From assembly GCA_026984045.1 (NCBI GenBank), contig JALSSV010000068.1:1-45795 (forward strand): DNA of 45,795 nucleotides, given 5' to 3'. Under the pieces are notes generated by a model that did no database searches, was not told the origin of the DNA, and saw nothing but the letters and a program-made list of their open reading frames with translations. A program made the translations under genes and the position numbers. The DNA is from Chromatiales bacterium (GTDB taxonomy: Bacteria; Pseudomonadota; Gammaproteobacteria; UBA6429; Thiohalophilaceae). Of this stretch, positions 34,856 to 40,656 are shown piece by piece (position 1 is the first letter of the stretch; every line of letters begins with the position of its first letter).

Positions 34856-35453
34856 GTTGCAGTCGCTCCTGTAAACGGGAGAGGTCTTGCGGGGTGTTGA
34901 GATTGACGAAGGCCGTGGCCTCATCGCTGAAGTCCACCGCCACCGCATCCTGCCGCGCCAGCCAGGCGCCCAGGCGCCGTTCACCCCGGGCGAGGTAGTC
35001 GGCCAGATCCGCCCGGCAACGACGATGGATCAGACAGAAGGCCGGCTGGGTCTTGCCGGCCACACTGGCCAGCACCGCCTGCGCCTGCCGTGCCTTAGCC
35101 GTTGCCAGCAGGCGTGAACCCAGATCGGCGGGCAGAAGCGGACAGTCCACGGGTGCCACCAGCAGCCAGTCGTTGTCGATGTGTTCGAGGGCGGCCAGGA
35201 TGCCGGCCAGAGGGCCGGGCCGGCCGGGCAGGGTATCCGGCCAGACGGGCACGCCCAGGGCCCGGTAGCGATCGAGGTTGCGGTTGGCGCTGATGGCCAG
35301 CGACCGAACCTGTGGTCGTAGTCGCTGCAACACCCGTTCGACCAGGGGGACACCGTCCAGCCTCAGCCAGCCCTTGTCGCGGCCCTGCATGCGCCGGCCG
35401 CGCCCGCCTGCGAGGATCAGGCCGTTGAGGGAGGCTGGGGCGGTGTCTGCCAT
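34842..35453 (-). CDS. mobA: Molybdenum cofactor guanylyltransferase MobA
   Basis: 203-aa enzyme joining GMP to molybdopterin. Seen: the nucleotidyl-transferase motif LILAGGRGRRMQGRDKGWL, then PGPLAGILAALEHI, LLVAPVDCPLLPADL and the C-terminal FVNLNTPQDL. It begins the molybdenum cofactor operon. The sigma28-like promoter at 35479 faces away from it, in the 82-bp gap to the 63-aa gene. Confidence 0.95.
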   Translation of the reverse strand: MADTAPASLNGLILAGGRGRRMQGRDKGWLRLDGVPLVERVLQRLRPQVRSLAISANRNLDRYRALGVPVWPDTLPGRPGPLAGILAALEHIDNDWLLVAPVDCPLLPADLGSRLLATAKARQAQAVLASVAGKTQPAFCLIHRRCRADLADYLARGERRLGAWLARQDAVAVDFSDEATAFVNLNTPQDLSRLQERLQHGPR

Positions 35454-35478
35454 GCCTGGCAGTATATCAATGGTCGGC

Positions 35479-35505
35479 TAAAGATATGTCCCTCCCGGCC
35501 GATAC
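35479..35505 (+). promoter_or_regulatory. Candidate sigma28 (FliA) promoter
   Basis: TAAAGATA (35479-35486), exactly 11 nt, then GCCGATAC (35498-35505), against the consensus TAAAGTTT-N11-GCCGATAA. Fourteen of sixteen consensus positions or close to that match, and the spacing is exact. Transcription would start about 23 bp before the 63-aa gene. Confidence 0.8.
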
Positions 35506-35535
35506 TGCCCCTAATCCTACTGCGAGTCGGCATGC

Positions 35536-35727
35536 ATGAGCATATCCTCCATCCTCAACAAGGCGATCTTCGGGGCCGAGAAAGGGCTGCGGGACGCACG
35601 CGACGTTTCCAGCCAGTTGGCCGTGGCCACCCCGGATCCCGACGAATCATCGACGGATACCCCGAACGCCCGGGTGGAGAAGGCACGGGATGCGGATCTT
35701 GGTCGGATCGTCGACGAACAGGCCTAG
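35536..35727 (+). CDS. Small 63-aa protein, probably motility-linked
   Basis: Not assigned to a named family. It begins MSISSILNKAIFGAEKGLRD, an amphipathic helix followed by VSSQLA, then an acidic, Asp/Glu-rich tail. The first 30 residues recall the N-terminal helix of flagellar axial proteins, but this is only a resemblance. The strong support is the FliA-type promoter 30 bp upstream; no clear Shine-Dalgarno is seen. Its TAG stop is inside the CTAG that borders the inverted-repeat element; taking the element out keeps the same stop, so the gene is not truncated. It would then be 25 nt from the HDOD gene. Confidence 0.6.
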   Translation: MSISSILNKAIFGAEKGLRDARDVSSQLAVATPDPDESSTDTPNARVEKARDADLGRIVDEQA

Positions 35728-36054
35728 CCCGGATATTGCACCATGTCGAGGGCGGGCGGTGACTCAAGCGATTGAAGAGAAATGGCATATTGAGGATTAT
35801 CTGCTTTTTTGGCAGACACATTTCGTTCCTGCCCGCCCTCTGCGCCGGCCCTTGCGGCTTTGGTGGCAGACCGTCCCTGGTCTGCCTCCTGCGGGCGCGC
35901 TTTGCGCGACCCGTTTCGTTCCAGACGAAACGGTCGCTCGCGCTCGCTTGCGCTTCACGAAAGCCGTAGCCATGGCCACGCCTTTCGCTCCAGCGCGGCG
36001 CGAGCGCGGCTGCAAAGACCGCAATCATCCGGCGCCCATGGTGCAATATCCGGG
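35728..36054. mobile_element. 327-bp MITE-like element with 18-bp terminal inverted repeats
   Basis: Left end CCCGGATATTGCACCATG (35728-35745), right end its exact complement (36037-36054), and CTAG directly outside both (35724-35727 and 36055-36058), a possible 4-bp target duplication. The interior has no transposase and no credible gene, but has hairpins such as CCGTTTCGT/ACGAAACGG. CTAG is its own complement, so it could also be part of the inverted repeat. Confidence 0.8.
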
Positions 36055-36083
36055 CTAGCCTCGTCACGGAGACACGCCATTCC

Positions 36084-36962
36084 ATGCAGGAAATCGAAGT
36101 GGAAAAGATCCGGGTCCGCGTACAGGATCTGACCGAACTGCCTGCCGCCTCACCGCTGGTGGCCAGCCTGCTCGATGCCATTGGCAACGATGACATCACG
36201 ATCCGTGAACTGGCGGCCCTGATCCGCCAGGAACCGGCCCTGGTGGCGCGCATCATCGGCCTGGCCAATTCCGCCTATTTCGGCCATGTGGAGCCCATCA
36301 CCTCGGTCGAGGAGGCCATCTTCAAGTCGCTGGGCCTGCAACTGACCAAGAGCCTGGCGCTGAGCATTGCGCTGGTGGGCAGTTTCGGCCACAAACCCGG
36401 TGCCCGGCATTTCGATCTCTACCGCTTCTGGAGCGACGCGGTGCTCACCGCCACGCTGGCGCGCACTCTCAGTGGGTATGTGCGGACCATGCCCAGACCC
36501 TCATCAGACGATGCCTATCTGGCCGGCATGCTGCACAACTTCGGCATGCTGCCGCTGGCCTTTCTCTATCCCGAAGCCACCGATGATGTGTGCGAATCGG
36601 CCCACGGCGAGGCCGATTTCGCCCGCCGCATGCAGCAGGCCATCGGCACCGATCAGTACGAGGTGGGCGTGCTGCTGGCTCGCCAGTGGCAGATCCCCGA
36701 GCAGGTGGTGGCCGTGATCGGCCATGCGCACGAGCCCGATTACGAAGGCGACTACCAGCCGCTGGTGCGCCTCCTGTACGGCGTGTCCGGGGTGGTACAT
36801 CATCTGCGGAACGAGGCGTCGTTCGAGGGCGAAACCGAGGAAGCGGTTTTCGAACCCCTGCGTTCCCTCGGCATCGATGCGGTGCGCATTCGCGGCTCCC
36901 TGGAAAGCCTGCAGCGCAAGGAAGCGGCGCTGGAGTCCATGGTGCACGTGCTGGCCCACTGA
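36084..36962 (+). CDS. HDOD domain signalling protein
   Basis: 292-aa single-domain HDOD protein. Seen: ELPAASPLVASLLDAIGND, then IRELAALIRQEPALVARIIG, and NSAYFGHVEPITSVEEAIF, the usual core. The HD motif of catalytic phosphohydrolases is degenerate, as in the HDOD family; GMLHNFGMLPLAF keeps only the H. Such proteins act in signalling and motility, in some bacteria through gene regulation, and are not enzymes. It begins 14 bp before the GGDEF gene ends up in the same direction, and before the element inserted it would have been co-transcribed with the 63-aa gene. Confidence 0.88.
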   Translation: MQEIEVEKIRVRVQDLTELPAASPLVASLLDAIGNDDITIRELAALIRQEPALVARIIGLANSAYFGHVEPITSVEEAIFKSLGLQLTKSLALSIALVGSFGHKPGARHFDLYRFWSDAVLTATLARTLSGYVRTMPRPSSDDAYLAGMLHNFGMLPLAFLYPEATDDVCESAHGEADFARRMQQAIGTDQYEVGVLLARQWQIPEQVVAVIGHAHEPDYEGDYQPLVRLLYGVSGVVHHLRNEASFEGETEEAVFEPLRSLGIDAVRIRGSLESLQRKEAALESMVHVLAH

Positions 36963-36976
36963 GCGGAACGAAAATC

Positions 36977-38110
36977 ATGGAGACCCAGCCCTTCGTCGCC
37001 GCCTTCCAGGAGATCAACAACCGGCTGATCCGGCTGATCGGATCCATGTCGGCCCTGCGTGAACTGTCCACCCTCGAACCGCGGCACGTGGACGAACAGG
37101 AACTCCTGGATACCTCGCTGCGCATCCTGCTCGACAACCACGAACTCGACTATGCGGCGATCTTCCTGCGCGAAGACGAGGCCCTCGAGGAGCGGGCCAG
37201 CCGGGGCTGGCAGGCGGGCGGGCCGTTGCCGGAGGAGGCCGTAATGCCTCACCTTTCCGAACTGGCCGCGGAGGCGCTGGCCCGGCGCGCGGTGTGCTAC
37301 CGGCGGGAGATGCAGGGCCTTCAGGCCGTGGAAGGTTCGGCCATCGCGCTGCCCCTGAGCAGCGGCGACAGTCCTCTCGGCGCCCTGTGCGCCTGGTCGC
37401 CCGACAGCGACTTCTTCACCCAGGCGCATGAGCGCAGCCTGGTCATCTATTGCAACTTTCTCGCCCAGTCGATCCTCAACAACCGCCTGCTGCAGCAGAT
37501 GGATGCGCTGGTGAAGGCGCGTACCGAACAGTTGCACGATGCCCTCTCCGAAGCCAAGGAACTCAAGCGGCGCTACGAGGAACTGTCGGTGATCGACGAT
37601 CTGACCGCCCTGCACAATCGCCGCTTCTTCTTCCCCGAGGCCCGCAATCTGGTGGCGGCGGCGATTCGCTACGAAACCCCCCTGTCGATGCTGATGATCG
37701 ACATCGATCGTTTCAAACAAATCAACGACACCCACGGTCATGCCACCGGCGACCGGGTTCTCAAGCGCATGGCCAGCCTGCTGCGTGAAGAGAAACGGGA
37801 AGCCGATATCCTGGCCCGCTTCGGGGGCGAAGAGTTCATCATGCTACTCCCCGAAACGGGTGTGGAGGGCGCCGCCACTTTTGCCGAACGGCTGCGGCAG
37901 AAGATCGCGGATCTCGACTGCGATGGCGGCGAAAGGCTGTTCCGGCTCACCGCCAGTTTCGGGGTGGCCAGCCTGACCTTCCCTGCCGGCAGTGATGCCG
38001 GGCAGGTGCTCGAAACGCTGGTGCAACAGGCCGACGCGGCCCTCTACCGCAGCAAGGCCGACGGCCGCAACCGGGTCAGCCGCTATTCGGACATCGGCTG
38101 TGCGATCTGA
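36977..38110 (+). CDS. GAF-GGDEF diguanylate cyclase
   Basis: 377-aa protein predicted to make c-di-GMP. An N-terminal GAF-like sensor domain (about 40-185: LLDTSLRILLDNHELDYAAI) is followed by a coiled coil (ARTEQLHDALSEAKELKRRY) and a GGDEF domain (about 215-375). The active site is GGEEF in ARFGGEEFIML, with the inhibitory RxxD site (READ) exactly five residues before it, so product feedback is expected. DDLTALHNRRFFF and DIDRFKQINDTHGHATGD are further GGDEF motifs. It begins 14 bp after the HDOD gene. There is no signal peptide or membrane segment, so it is cytoplasmic. Confidence 0.93.
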   Translation: METQPFVAAFQEINNRLIRLIGSMSALRELSTLEPRHVDEQELLDTSLRILLDNHELDYAAIFLREDEALEERASRGWQAGGPLPEEAVMPHLSELAAEALARRAVCYRREMQGLQAVEGSAIALPLSSGDSPLGALCAWSPDSDFFTQAHERSLVIYCNFLAQSILNNRLLQQMDALVKARTEQLHDALSEAKELKRRYEELSVIDDLTALHNRRFFFPEARNLVAAAIRYETPLSMLMIDIDRFKQINDTHGHATGDRVLKRMASLLREEKREADILARFGGEEFIMLLPETGVEGAATFAERLRQKIADLDCDGGERLFRLTASFGVASLTFPAGSDAGQVLETLVQQADAALYRSKADGRNRVSRYSDIGCAI

Positions 38111-38293: not shown

Positions 38294-39172
38294 ATGCGGT
38301 CACGATGCCAGCACAGCCGCTTCCTGTGCCTGCTGTTTCTGTCGTTCCTGCTGTCGTTGCCGGCAGCCACGCTGGCGGCCGATGCGCAAGCGGTCATCCG
38401 CTTCGGCATTCTGTCCATCGCGCCCCCGGCGCGCATCCATCGCAACTGGCAGCCGTTTGCCGATCATCTGGCCCGGGTGCTGCGACAGCCCGTGGAGCTG
38501 GTGGTGCCGCGCGGTTTCGGCAAGCTGGCCCGGGCCGTCGAGGCCGGCGAGGTGGATTTCTTCTACGTCAACTCCTACGTCTTCTACCGGCTCAAGCAGG
38601 CCGGCCGGGCGCGGGGCGTGGCGCAGATGGTAAACCTCGACGGCAAGGTGACCAGCCGCAGCGAGATCTTCGTGCGCCGCGATTCGGGCATCCACAGTCC
38701 CGCCGATCTCAAGGGCCATGCGATCGCCTTCGTCAGTCCGCTGGGGGCCGGCGGCTACCTGGCGCCCCGCGCCTATCTGGCCCGCAACGGGCTGGCCGCC
38801 GGTGAAGACGTGCAGCCGGTGTTCACCCGCAATCTCGCCAATTCCATTCACCAGGTTCTGCTCGGCGACGTGGAGGCAGGCACCATGTGCGGCGTGAACT
38901 TCCGGCTCATGCAGCGCAAGCTGAATACGGGTGAGCTGAAGATCATTGGCCAGAGCGAAGCCTATCCCGAGAATCTCATCGCCGCCCGCGCCGATCTCGA
39001 CCCGGCCCGGCTGGCCCGTTTCCGCGAGGCGGTGCTGAACATGACGCAGACGGCGGCGGGCCGGCAGGTGCTCGCCCGGATGCACGGCATGAAGATCCGG
39101 CGCTTTGTGCCCTACGATCCGGCCATCGAGGCCATTACCCGGCGACTGCTGCGGGAAAGCGGACTCGAATGA
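38294..39172 (+). CDS. PhnD/phosphonate-type periplasmic binding protein
   Basis: 292-aa protein of the phosphate/phosphonate-binding PhnD family. A signal peptide covers about residues 1-28 (FLCLLFLSFLLSLPAATLA). IRFGILSIAPPARIHRNWQP opens the mature part, with EAGEVDFFYVNSYVFYRLK and AFVSPLGAGGYLAPRAY later. No ABC permease or ATPase gene is next to it. Instead its stop overlaps the start of a histidine kinase by 4 nt (ATGA), which suggests the ligand-bound form is read by the kinase. Ribosome site GGAGG lies 9 nt before the ATG. Confidence 0.88.
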   Translation: MRSRCQHSRFLCLLFLSFLLSLPAATLAADAQAVIRFGILSIAPPARIHRNWQPFADHLARVLRQPVELVVPRGFGKLARAVEAGEVDFFYVNSYVFYRLKQAGRARGVAQMVNLDGKVTSRSEIFVRRDSGIHSPADLKGHAIAFVSPLGAGGYLAPRAYLARNGLAAGEDVQPVFTRNLANSIHQVLLGDVEAGTMCGVNFRLMQRKLNTGELKIIGQSEAYPENLIAARADLDPARLARFREAVLNMTQTAAGRQVLARMHGMKIRRFVPYDPAIEAITRRLLRESGLE

Positions 39173-40656
39173 GCCTCGTTCCCCGCAGTCTGTTCGCGCG
39201 CCTGGCCTGGAGCCTGGCCGTGGTGCTCACCCTTGCCATGCTGGGCATGGGCTATCTGCTCCTCGACGAAAGCCGGGAGCGTTTCGAACAGGAACGCCAC
39301 CGCCTGGCCGTGGCCAGCGCCCGGGTGCTGGCCGAAGCCGGCGTGGATGCCCTGGCCGCCCGTGACTACGAACTGCTGGATCGCTGGGTGCATTCGGTGA
39401 TGCCCACCGACGACATGGCCTGGGTCTATCTGGATCGGGCCAATGGCCAGATCCTCAGTCATACGGATCTCGACCAGGTGGGCCGTTACGAGAAGGCCCT
39501 GGGTGCTCTGCCGCGGCCCCTGACCCGCCAGCGACGCGACGCGAAGGGAGAGCCGGTTTTCGAGGCCGTGCACCCGGTCTGGCTGGGCGAGCGGCACCTG
39601 GCCAATGCCCATGTGGCGTACTATCCCGGCCGCGTGGCCTTCTTCTCCAGCCTGGCCTTCGACAAGCTGGTGGGGGTGCTGGCCGTTGCGCTGCTGTTCA
39701 TGCTCCTGGCCACCCTGCTGATCGTGCGTCGCCATCTGCATCCCCTGGGGCGGCTGGCCGAACAGGTCGAACACCTCTCCCTTGATGCGCTGAATCTGAA
39801 ACTGGCCCCGGCCCTGCTGCAACGGAACGACGAGGTGGGCGCCCTGGCCCGGGCCTTCGATGCCCTGGCGCGGCGCATCACCCGTCTGGTGAGCGAACTG
39901 CGTGATGAGGAACAGCGCCTGCAGGCCACGGTGGCCGAACGCACCCGGGCCCTGCAGCACAGCAACCGGGAACTGGAATCCTTCTGTCACAGCGTCTCCC
40001 ACGATCTGCGCGCCCCGCTGCGGGCCATGGACGGCTTCAGCCAGGCCCTGTTGGAGGACCATGGGGAAAAGCTGGACGAGGAGGGGCGGCAATATCTGCA
40101 CCGGATCCGTGCCGCGGCCGACCGCATGGGCCAGCTGATCGACGATCTGCTGCGCCTCTCGCGCATCTCGCGCCAGGCCCTGCAGGTCGAGCCGCTGGAT
40201 CTGGTGCCGCTGGCGCGGCGCATCTTCGACGAGTTGCAGGCCGGCGAGCCCGAGCGGCAGGTCACGCTGCGGCTGCCGGAAAGCCTGCCGGCGACGGGCG
40301 ATGCACGACTGCTGCGCATCGCCCTTGAGAACCTGCTGGCCAATGCCTGGAAGTACACCTCGCGGCGCGAGGCGGCCGAAATCGCCCTTGGCGCCGAAAC
40401 GGAAGCGGGCGAGACCATCTACTGGATCCGCGACAATGGCGAAGGCTTCGACATGGCCTATGCCGACAAGCTGTTTCACGTCTTCCAGCGCCTGCACCAC
40501 CAGGACGAGTTTCCCGGCACCGGCATCGGCCTGGCCACGGTGTCGCGCATCGTGCAGCGCCACGGCGGCCGGATCTGGGCCGACGCCGAACCGGGCCTGG
40601 GCGCCATCTTCTTCTTCACCCTGGGCCGGTCCGCGTCCACCTCGCCTTTGCCATAG
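39169..40656 (+). CDS. Membrane sensor histidine kinase, partner of the PhnD-like protein
   Basis: 495-aa kinase. Two membrane segments (about residues 13-33 and 165-185) flank a periplasmic sensor region; a HAMP domain follows (VRRHLHPLGRLAEQVEHLSL), then a coiled coil (EQRLQATVAERTRALQHSNR). The dimerisation domain holds the phospho-His in CHSVSHDLRAPLRAMDGF, and the ATPase domain has NLLANAWKY (N box), DNGEGFD (G1) and GTGIGLA (G2). No receiver domain is fused and no response regulator gene follows, so its partner is elsewhere. Its 4-nt overlap with the PhnD-like gene points to a joint function. Confidence 0.92.
   Translation: MSLVPRSLFARLAWSLAVVLTLAMLGMGYLLLDESRERFEQERHRLAVASARVLAEAGVDALAARDYELLDRWVHSVMPTDDMAWVYLDRANGQILSHTDLDQVGRYEKALGALPRPLTRQRRDAKGEPVFEAVHPVWLGERHLANAHVAYYPGRVAFFSSLAFDKLVGVLAVALLFMLLATLLIVRRHLHPLGRLAEQVEHLSLDALNLKLAPALLQRNDEVGALARAFDALARRITRLVSELRDEEQRLQATVAERTRALQHSNRELESFCHSVSHDLRAPLRAMDGFSQALLEDHGEKLDEEGRQYLHRIRAAADRMGQLIDDLLRLSRISRQALQVEPLDLVPLARRIFDELQAGEPERQVTLRLPESLPATGDARLLRIALENLLANAWKYTSRREAAEIALGAETEAGETIYWIRDNGEGFDMAYADKLFHVFQRLHHQDEFPGTGIGLATVSRIVQRHGGRIWADAEPGLGAIFFFTLGRSASTSPLP

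Follow-up and report, generated by a model that had tools for sequence, protein, structure and literature searches.

A predicted FliA-class operon pairing an HDOD protein with a diguanylate cyclase, interrupted by a MITE in a Chromatiales bacterium

The window analysed here (a stretch of 45,795 nucleotides, contig JALSSV010000068.1 of the Chromatiales bacterium assembly GCA_026984045.1) carries three consecutive genes, for a 63-aa protein, an HDOD protein and a GAF-GGDEF protein. In our opinion they quite probably make up a late flagellar (FliA-class) operon, in which the HDOD protein would act as the partner of a diguanylate cyclase and which has been interrupted by a MITE harmless to the genes. 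The locus comprises the following features.

35479-35505, + strand: predicted sigma28 (FliA)-type promoter TAAAGATA-N11-GCCGATAC, read from the sequence, an exact match to TAAA-N15-GCCGATA
35536-35727, + strand: 63-aa ORF, assigned by orthologues and profile comparison, as a divergent member, to a family of small proteins whose C-terminus is Flg_bbr_C-like
35724-35727: left target-site duplication CTAG, within which the 63-aa ORF has its stop codon
35728-36054: MITE-like element of 327 bp, with no gene of its own and with 18-bp perfect terminal inverted repeats
36055-36058: right target-site duplication CTAG
36084-36962, + strand: HDOD protein of 292 aa (PF08668 match; orthologues in relatives)
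36977-38110, + strand: predicted GAF-GGDEF diguanylate cyclase of 377 aa (GGDEF and GAF_3 matches; motifs)

The insertion interrupts the operon and leaves all three genes intact: their frames are undamaged, and the ribosome-site-like motif GGAG of the HDOD gene (36068-36071) lies outside the element. The coordinates bear out the original prediction that, once 35728-36058 is removed, the 63-aa gene ends 25 nt before the HDOD gene, as well as the 14-nt gap between the HDOD and GAF-GGDEF ORFs.

Comparison with relatives shows the predicted three-gene operon to be ancestral and conserved, the MITE having been inserted between its first two genes in this lineage. In a genome of the same genus (G001) the small gene is 80% identical and is followed, with no element, by the HDOD start 44 nt on; the contig ends within the HDOD gene, so that the order is visible there only as far as that start. 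The full order of small gene, HDOD and GGDEF was found in five further members of the family, G012, G018, G022, G028 and G033, where 15-21 nt (82 nt in G012) separate the small gene from HDOD and -1 to 9 nt separate HDOD from GGDEF. Thus the adjacency of the 63-aa and HDOD genes without the element, on which the prediction had staked the operon beforehand, was found in all six of these relatives. The HDOD orthologues directly following the small gene are 41-46% identical to the HDOD protein of the window, and moeA-mobB-mobA-type genes lie divergently upstream of the relatives' operons wherever the contig extends that far. Within the family, the small gene and the cyclase co-occur (p = 3e-6); at the order level the sample of 40 genomes is identical to that of the family.

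The promoter of the 63-aa operon appears, as predicted from its sequence, to be of the FliA class. The box TAAAGATA-N11-GCCGATAC is separated by 30 nt from the 63-aa gene that follows it and fits the consensus TAAAGTTT-N11-GCCGATAA, distance included. An equivalent box with the same spacing precedes the operon in six of six relatives (seven of seven genomes together with the window's own): G001, G012 and G018 have it in exact form, G022 and G028 as a TAAG variant, and G033 in a more degenerate form. Across the seven operons the best scores are 28-31.5 of 33.5, equalled in 0-1 of 200 shuffles of the upstream region. This conserved box, together with the uninterrupted gene order, upholds the proposal of a single operon under a sigma28 promoter. 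The exact pattern TAAA-N15-GCCGATA occurs 11 times in the 2.98-Mb genome of the window, against one occurrence of the reversed pattern, and two FliA-type sigma factors are matched there above the curated cut-off. Other exact boxes of this genome precede genes for FliL, MshE-like, PilM-like, HAMP, receiver-GGDEF and GGDEF-EAL proteins, so the pattern picks out motility and surface genes. Two of these exact sigma28-like boxes, at G000:C88:33039-33064 and G000:C58:41848-41873, stand before receiver-GGDEF and PAS-GGDEF-EAL genes, which may point to a wider group of c-di-GMP genes linked to FliA. It is from promoters and gene content that we infer the tie of the three genes to motility.

As to the products of the second and third genes, the HDOD protein matches PF08668 with 149.5 bits (cut-off 22.9, E 1.1e-43), and its nearest solved chains are of the HDOD type (e.g., 9qzk and 3mem). 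The cyclase matches GGDEF (PF00990, 146.6 bits, E 7.2e-43) and GAF_3 (32.3 bits, E 1.5e-7) and has both the RxxD inhibitory-site motif and the GGEEF active-site motif (READILARFGGEEF), the latter within RFGGEEF.

A class-wide search with a profile of the N-terminal half of the GAF-GGDEF protein gave matches in 27 of 369 gammaproteobacterial genomes. At 26 of the 28 loci found (the window excluded), belonging to 15 families, an HDOD gene is directly upstream of the cyclase gene, at a distance of -8 to 15 nt (24 loci), or forms a fusion with it (two loci, G015 and G237, with HDOD N-terminal to GAF-GGDEF); of the remaining two, one is truncated by a contig end and the other is a weak, unpaired match (L214, 1e-19), which was taken as not orthologous. 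A gap of 464 nt at L215 proved to be a start-codon artefact, the profile match starting at 1501. The two fusions share 55% identity along 665 residues and so probably go back to one event. RxxD and GGEEF are kept in nearly all of the class-level cyclases, which are therefore predicted to be active and product-inhibited. From fusion and adjacency alone we infer a direct contact between the HDOD protein and the cyclase. A scan of contigs found matches only in uncultured MAGs and no named cultured host.

Sigma28-like boxes, counted by a fixed number of matches to the Escherichia coli FliA consensus within 200 nt upstream of HDOD, are present at 13 of 25 class-level pairs. The corresponding counts are 94 of 2700 for random windows (Fisher 9e-13) and 18 of 115 for generic ORF starts (p = 2.6e-4); at about half of the pairs no such box was found within this distance. 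The contrast with unpaired HDOD genes (4 of 21, p = 0.02) is weak and needs care, because the threshold for scoring was chosen once the data had already been looked at. The G015 fusion, whose start is preceded at 47 nt by an exact sigma28 box of its own, stands outside this count. The class-wide pairing, a fusion and the sigma28-like boxes add support to the suggestion that the set is a small signalling module.

The 63-aa protein has orthologues of 80-41% identity. It has no Pfam match of its own, and hence none to PF06429 (Flg_bbr_C). Nevertheless, the profile of its family aligns (hhalign probability 98, E 7e-14) with that of a family of proteins of 70-82 aa found across the class, several members of which match PF06429, the flagellar rod/hook C-terminal domain (best 4e-6, above the cut-off). 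These profile comparisons place the 63-aa protein, as a divergent member, in a family whose proteins resemble the C-terminal end of the rod and hook proteins of flagella; its association with the axis of the flagellum or with the export route is probable. Its structure prediction contains only an N-terminal helix (residues 3-30), and its mean pLDDT of 62.9 does not suffice for a fold search. In G015, two tandem small-gene paralogues stand alone at a mobA-adjacent site behind a sigma28 box, and in G159, from another family, a homologue lies about 119 nt before an HDOD gene, no sigma28 box being found at that locus. The small gene adjoins the pair only in the window's family and in G159 and is absent upstream of most class-level pairs. 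Upstream of 19 members of the wider small-protein family that were scanned, no sigma54 sites were found, and sigma28 boxes were clear only in G015 and possible, at 164 nt, in L116. These widespread 70-82 aa proteins (L104-L126), with Flg_bbr_C-like C-termini and a conserved N-terminus (A..GIQ.GL...NA..IA), are barely covered by Pfam or NCBIfam.

The inserted element suspected at 35728-36058 is real, as its inverted repeat, target duplication and further genomic copies attest. A perfect 22-nt inverted repeat (35724-35745 and 36037-36058) consists of the 18-nt terminal repeats (35728-35745 and 36037-36054) and the CTAG target duplication, which is 4 bp long and of the YTAR type. In the genome there are three full copies and a fourth with an internal deletion; the two other full copies are 93% and 88% identical to that of the window, and the duplications are CTAG at each full copy and TTAC at the deleted one. 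The element end (16 nt, at most one mismatch) occurs 18 times in the genome, compared with none for the reversed control, and none in G001, whose orthologous site is empty. Being short, multi-copy, flanked by a target duplication, provided with terminal inverted repeats and devoid of a transposase gene, the element is by its sequence features a MITE; its multiplicity here and absence from G001 therefore mark it as a family expanded in this lineage. An IS1380-type parent was considered and rejected, the genome being without any PF13701 transposase. Near-identical ends also enclose shorter elements with another interior (GGATTCGATTCTCA...) at five loci of the same genome (L009, L013, L016, L018, L021), which suggests a mixed miniature-element family with one common transposase. 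An unrelated MITE-like repeat (CTAGGAGCCTGTCGGGTTTAGG ... CCTAAACCCGACAGGCTCCTAG) with CTAG ends immediately precedes the HDOD-GAF-GGDEF fusion found in another family (L203, G237:C53, reverse complement 1-168).

The transcript of the element region is predicted to fold with -200.6 kcal/mol over 360 nt (z -9.66); the fold is common to the element copies, with almost no covariation as proof of selection. No sigma70-type promoter or intrinsic terminator was recognised in 35440-36100, element included, and an Rfam scan of 35440-36120 gave nothing convincing, the RsmW candidate (18.9 bits) falling short of the gathering score for that family, 52. Transcription most likely continues through the element, whose highly stable RNA hairpin may lower or uncouple the expression of HDOD and GGDEF. 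MITEs can act via promoters, IHF sites or RNase processing by RNase III or RNase E, and one of them, Chunjie, is cited as lying within an operon without disturbing it (review PMC10969869). Like Correia/NEMIS, ERIC and Chunjie (PMC10969869), the element of the window is short and non-coding, with terminal inverted repeats, a target duplication and a stable RNA hairpin, and with Chunjie it shares the location inside an operon; unlike them, it is of other sequence, and no promoter or autonomous parent was found for it.

The operon could work as follows. When the hook is complete and FlgM has been exported, FliA would transcribe the three genes; the HDOD protein would contact the cyclase and control its activity, and the resulting late pulse of c-di-GMP would be a motility brake or a switch to surface life or attachment. 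Since the FliA-class enzymes described in E. coli and Pseudomonas putida are phosphodiesterases (PdeH and BifA, respectively; PMC5635695, PMC5026340), the cyclase would act with the opposite sign. We think it unlikely that this extends to a class-wide flagellar checkpoint, in which a FliA-driven cyclase would be restrained by HDOD and a tiny mimic of axial proteins would report on assembly or export; if true, it would be a built-in brake on motility once the flagellum is finished.

Several other explanations have to be considered. It is quite possible, though short of probable, that the core unit is the HDOD-cyclase pair only and that the 63-aa gene is an unrelated small flagellar gene which shares the promoter in this family. 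Most class-level pairs are indeed without the small gene upstream, and in G015 the small genes and the fused HDOD-cyclase occupy separate sites, each with a sigma28 box; the latter fact, however, speaks both ways, as the two units keep such boxes even when apart. Moreover, the order is kept in six relatives (in G001 as far as the HDOD start) with gaps of mostly 15-44 nt (82 in G012), and the presence of the small gene is tied to that of the cyclase within the family, which argues against a fortuitous association. An origin of the sigma28 boxes in chance, or their weak use, with the pair serving a non-flagellar role such as surface pili or general c-di-GMP control, seems quite improbable to us: only about half of the class-level pairs have a box and some boxes of the same genome precede pilus-like genes, but the position of the box and its N15 spacing are conserved at seven divergent operons and one fusion.

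As for the consequences of the insertion, it is rather doubtful that the element has broken the operon, leaving HDOD-GGDEF silent or under another promoter inside or beyond the element. The 331 untranslated nucleotides of extremely structured RNA between the 63-aa and HDOD genes, and the ability of such elements to bring promoters and RNase III or RNase E sites (PMC10969869), would agree with this. However, no sigma70-type promoter or intrinsic terminator is recognisable in 35440-36100, neither the frames nor the motifs of HDOD and GGDEF are damaged, and Chunjie has already been recorded within an undisturbed operon (PMC10969869). The reading that we prefer remains a FliA-class operon interrupted by a MITE that does not harm its genes.

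Phosphodiesterases under FliA control are known, and so are HDOD proteins in the vicinity of c-di-GMP enzymes; what appears to be new is the HDOD/GAF-GGDEF pair, which was not found described in a full-text literature search that covered open-licence papers and is weak evidence of absence. Like PdeH and BifA, the enzyme of the window would be a c-di-GMP enzyme of the FliA late flagellar class; unlike these c-di-GMP-degrading enzymes (PMC5635695, PMC5026340), it is predicted to be a cyclase, and its partner gene encodes an HDOD protein. In P. fluorescens F113, SadB and AdrA similarly bring together an HDOD-containing protein and a diguanylate cyclase in flagellar control, but SadB has an extra YbaK-like domain and is described as acting downstream of AdrA instead of being its neighbour-encoded partner (PMC6543031). 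In Burkholderia pseudomallei (cdpA (I2284)/I2285), an HDOD gene likewise adjoins the gene of a c-di-GMP enzyme, both affecting motility; that enzyme, however, is a phosphodiesterase and not a GAF-GGDEF cyclase (PMC9040570). Fusion of HDOD to a c-di-GMP enzyme is known from EAL-HDOD phosphodiesterases, such as ZpdA of Vibrio cholerae, in which EAL is N-terminal and HDOD C-terminal (PMC12607878); in the present loci HDOD comes first, either as the upstream gene or as the N-terminal part of a fusion with GAF-GGDEF. The HDOD motility regulators PSPTO_4229, PFL_0554, PFL_5871, GsmR and CJ0248 affect swimming, and the passages cited report no cyclase partner gene for them, unlike for the HDOD protein of the window (PMC11813219, PMC11004494). 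HDOD proteins influence swimming in several bacteria by a mechanism that is not known (PMC11813219, PMC11004494, PMC6543031).

Against this background of widespread HDOD proteins that affect motility without a settled mechanism, a near-constant neighbour cyclase, fused in some cases and in many preceded by a promoter of the FliA type, offers a concrete target for HDOD function. If our reading is true, the last stage of flagellar gene expression would include a producer of c-di-GMP and not phosphodiesterases alone. The insertion in the window is a natural test of how a MITE in an operon alters expression.

The region beside the operon (38294-40656) contains a gene for a phosphonate-type periplasmic binding protein followed by one for a HAMP histidine kinase. 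In several relatives their place is taken by a gene of opposite orientation, which by its sequence we take to be queG-like.
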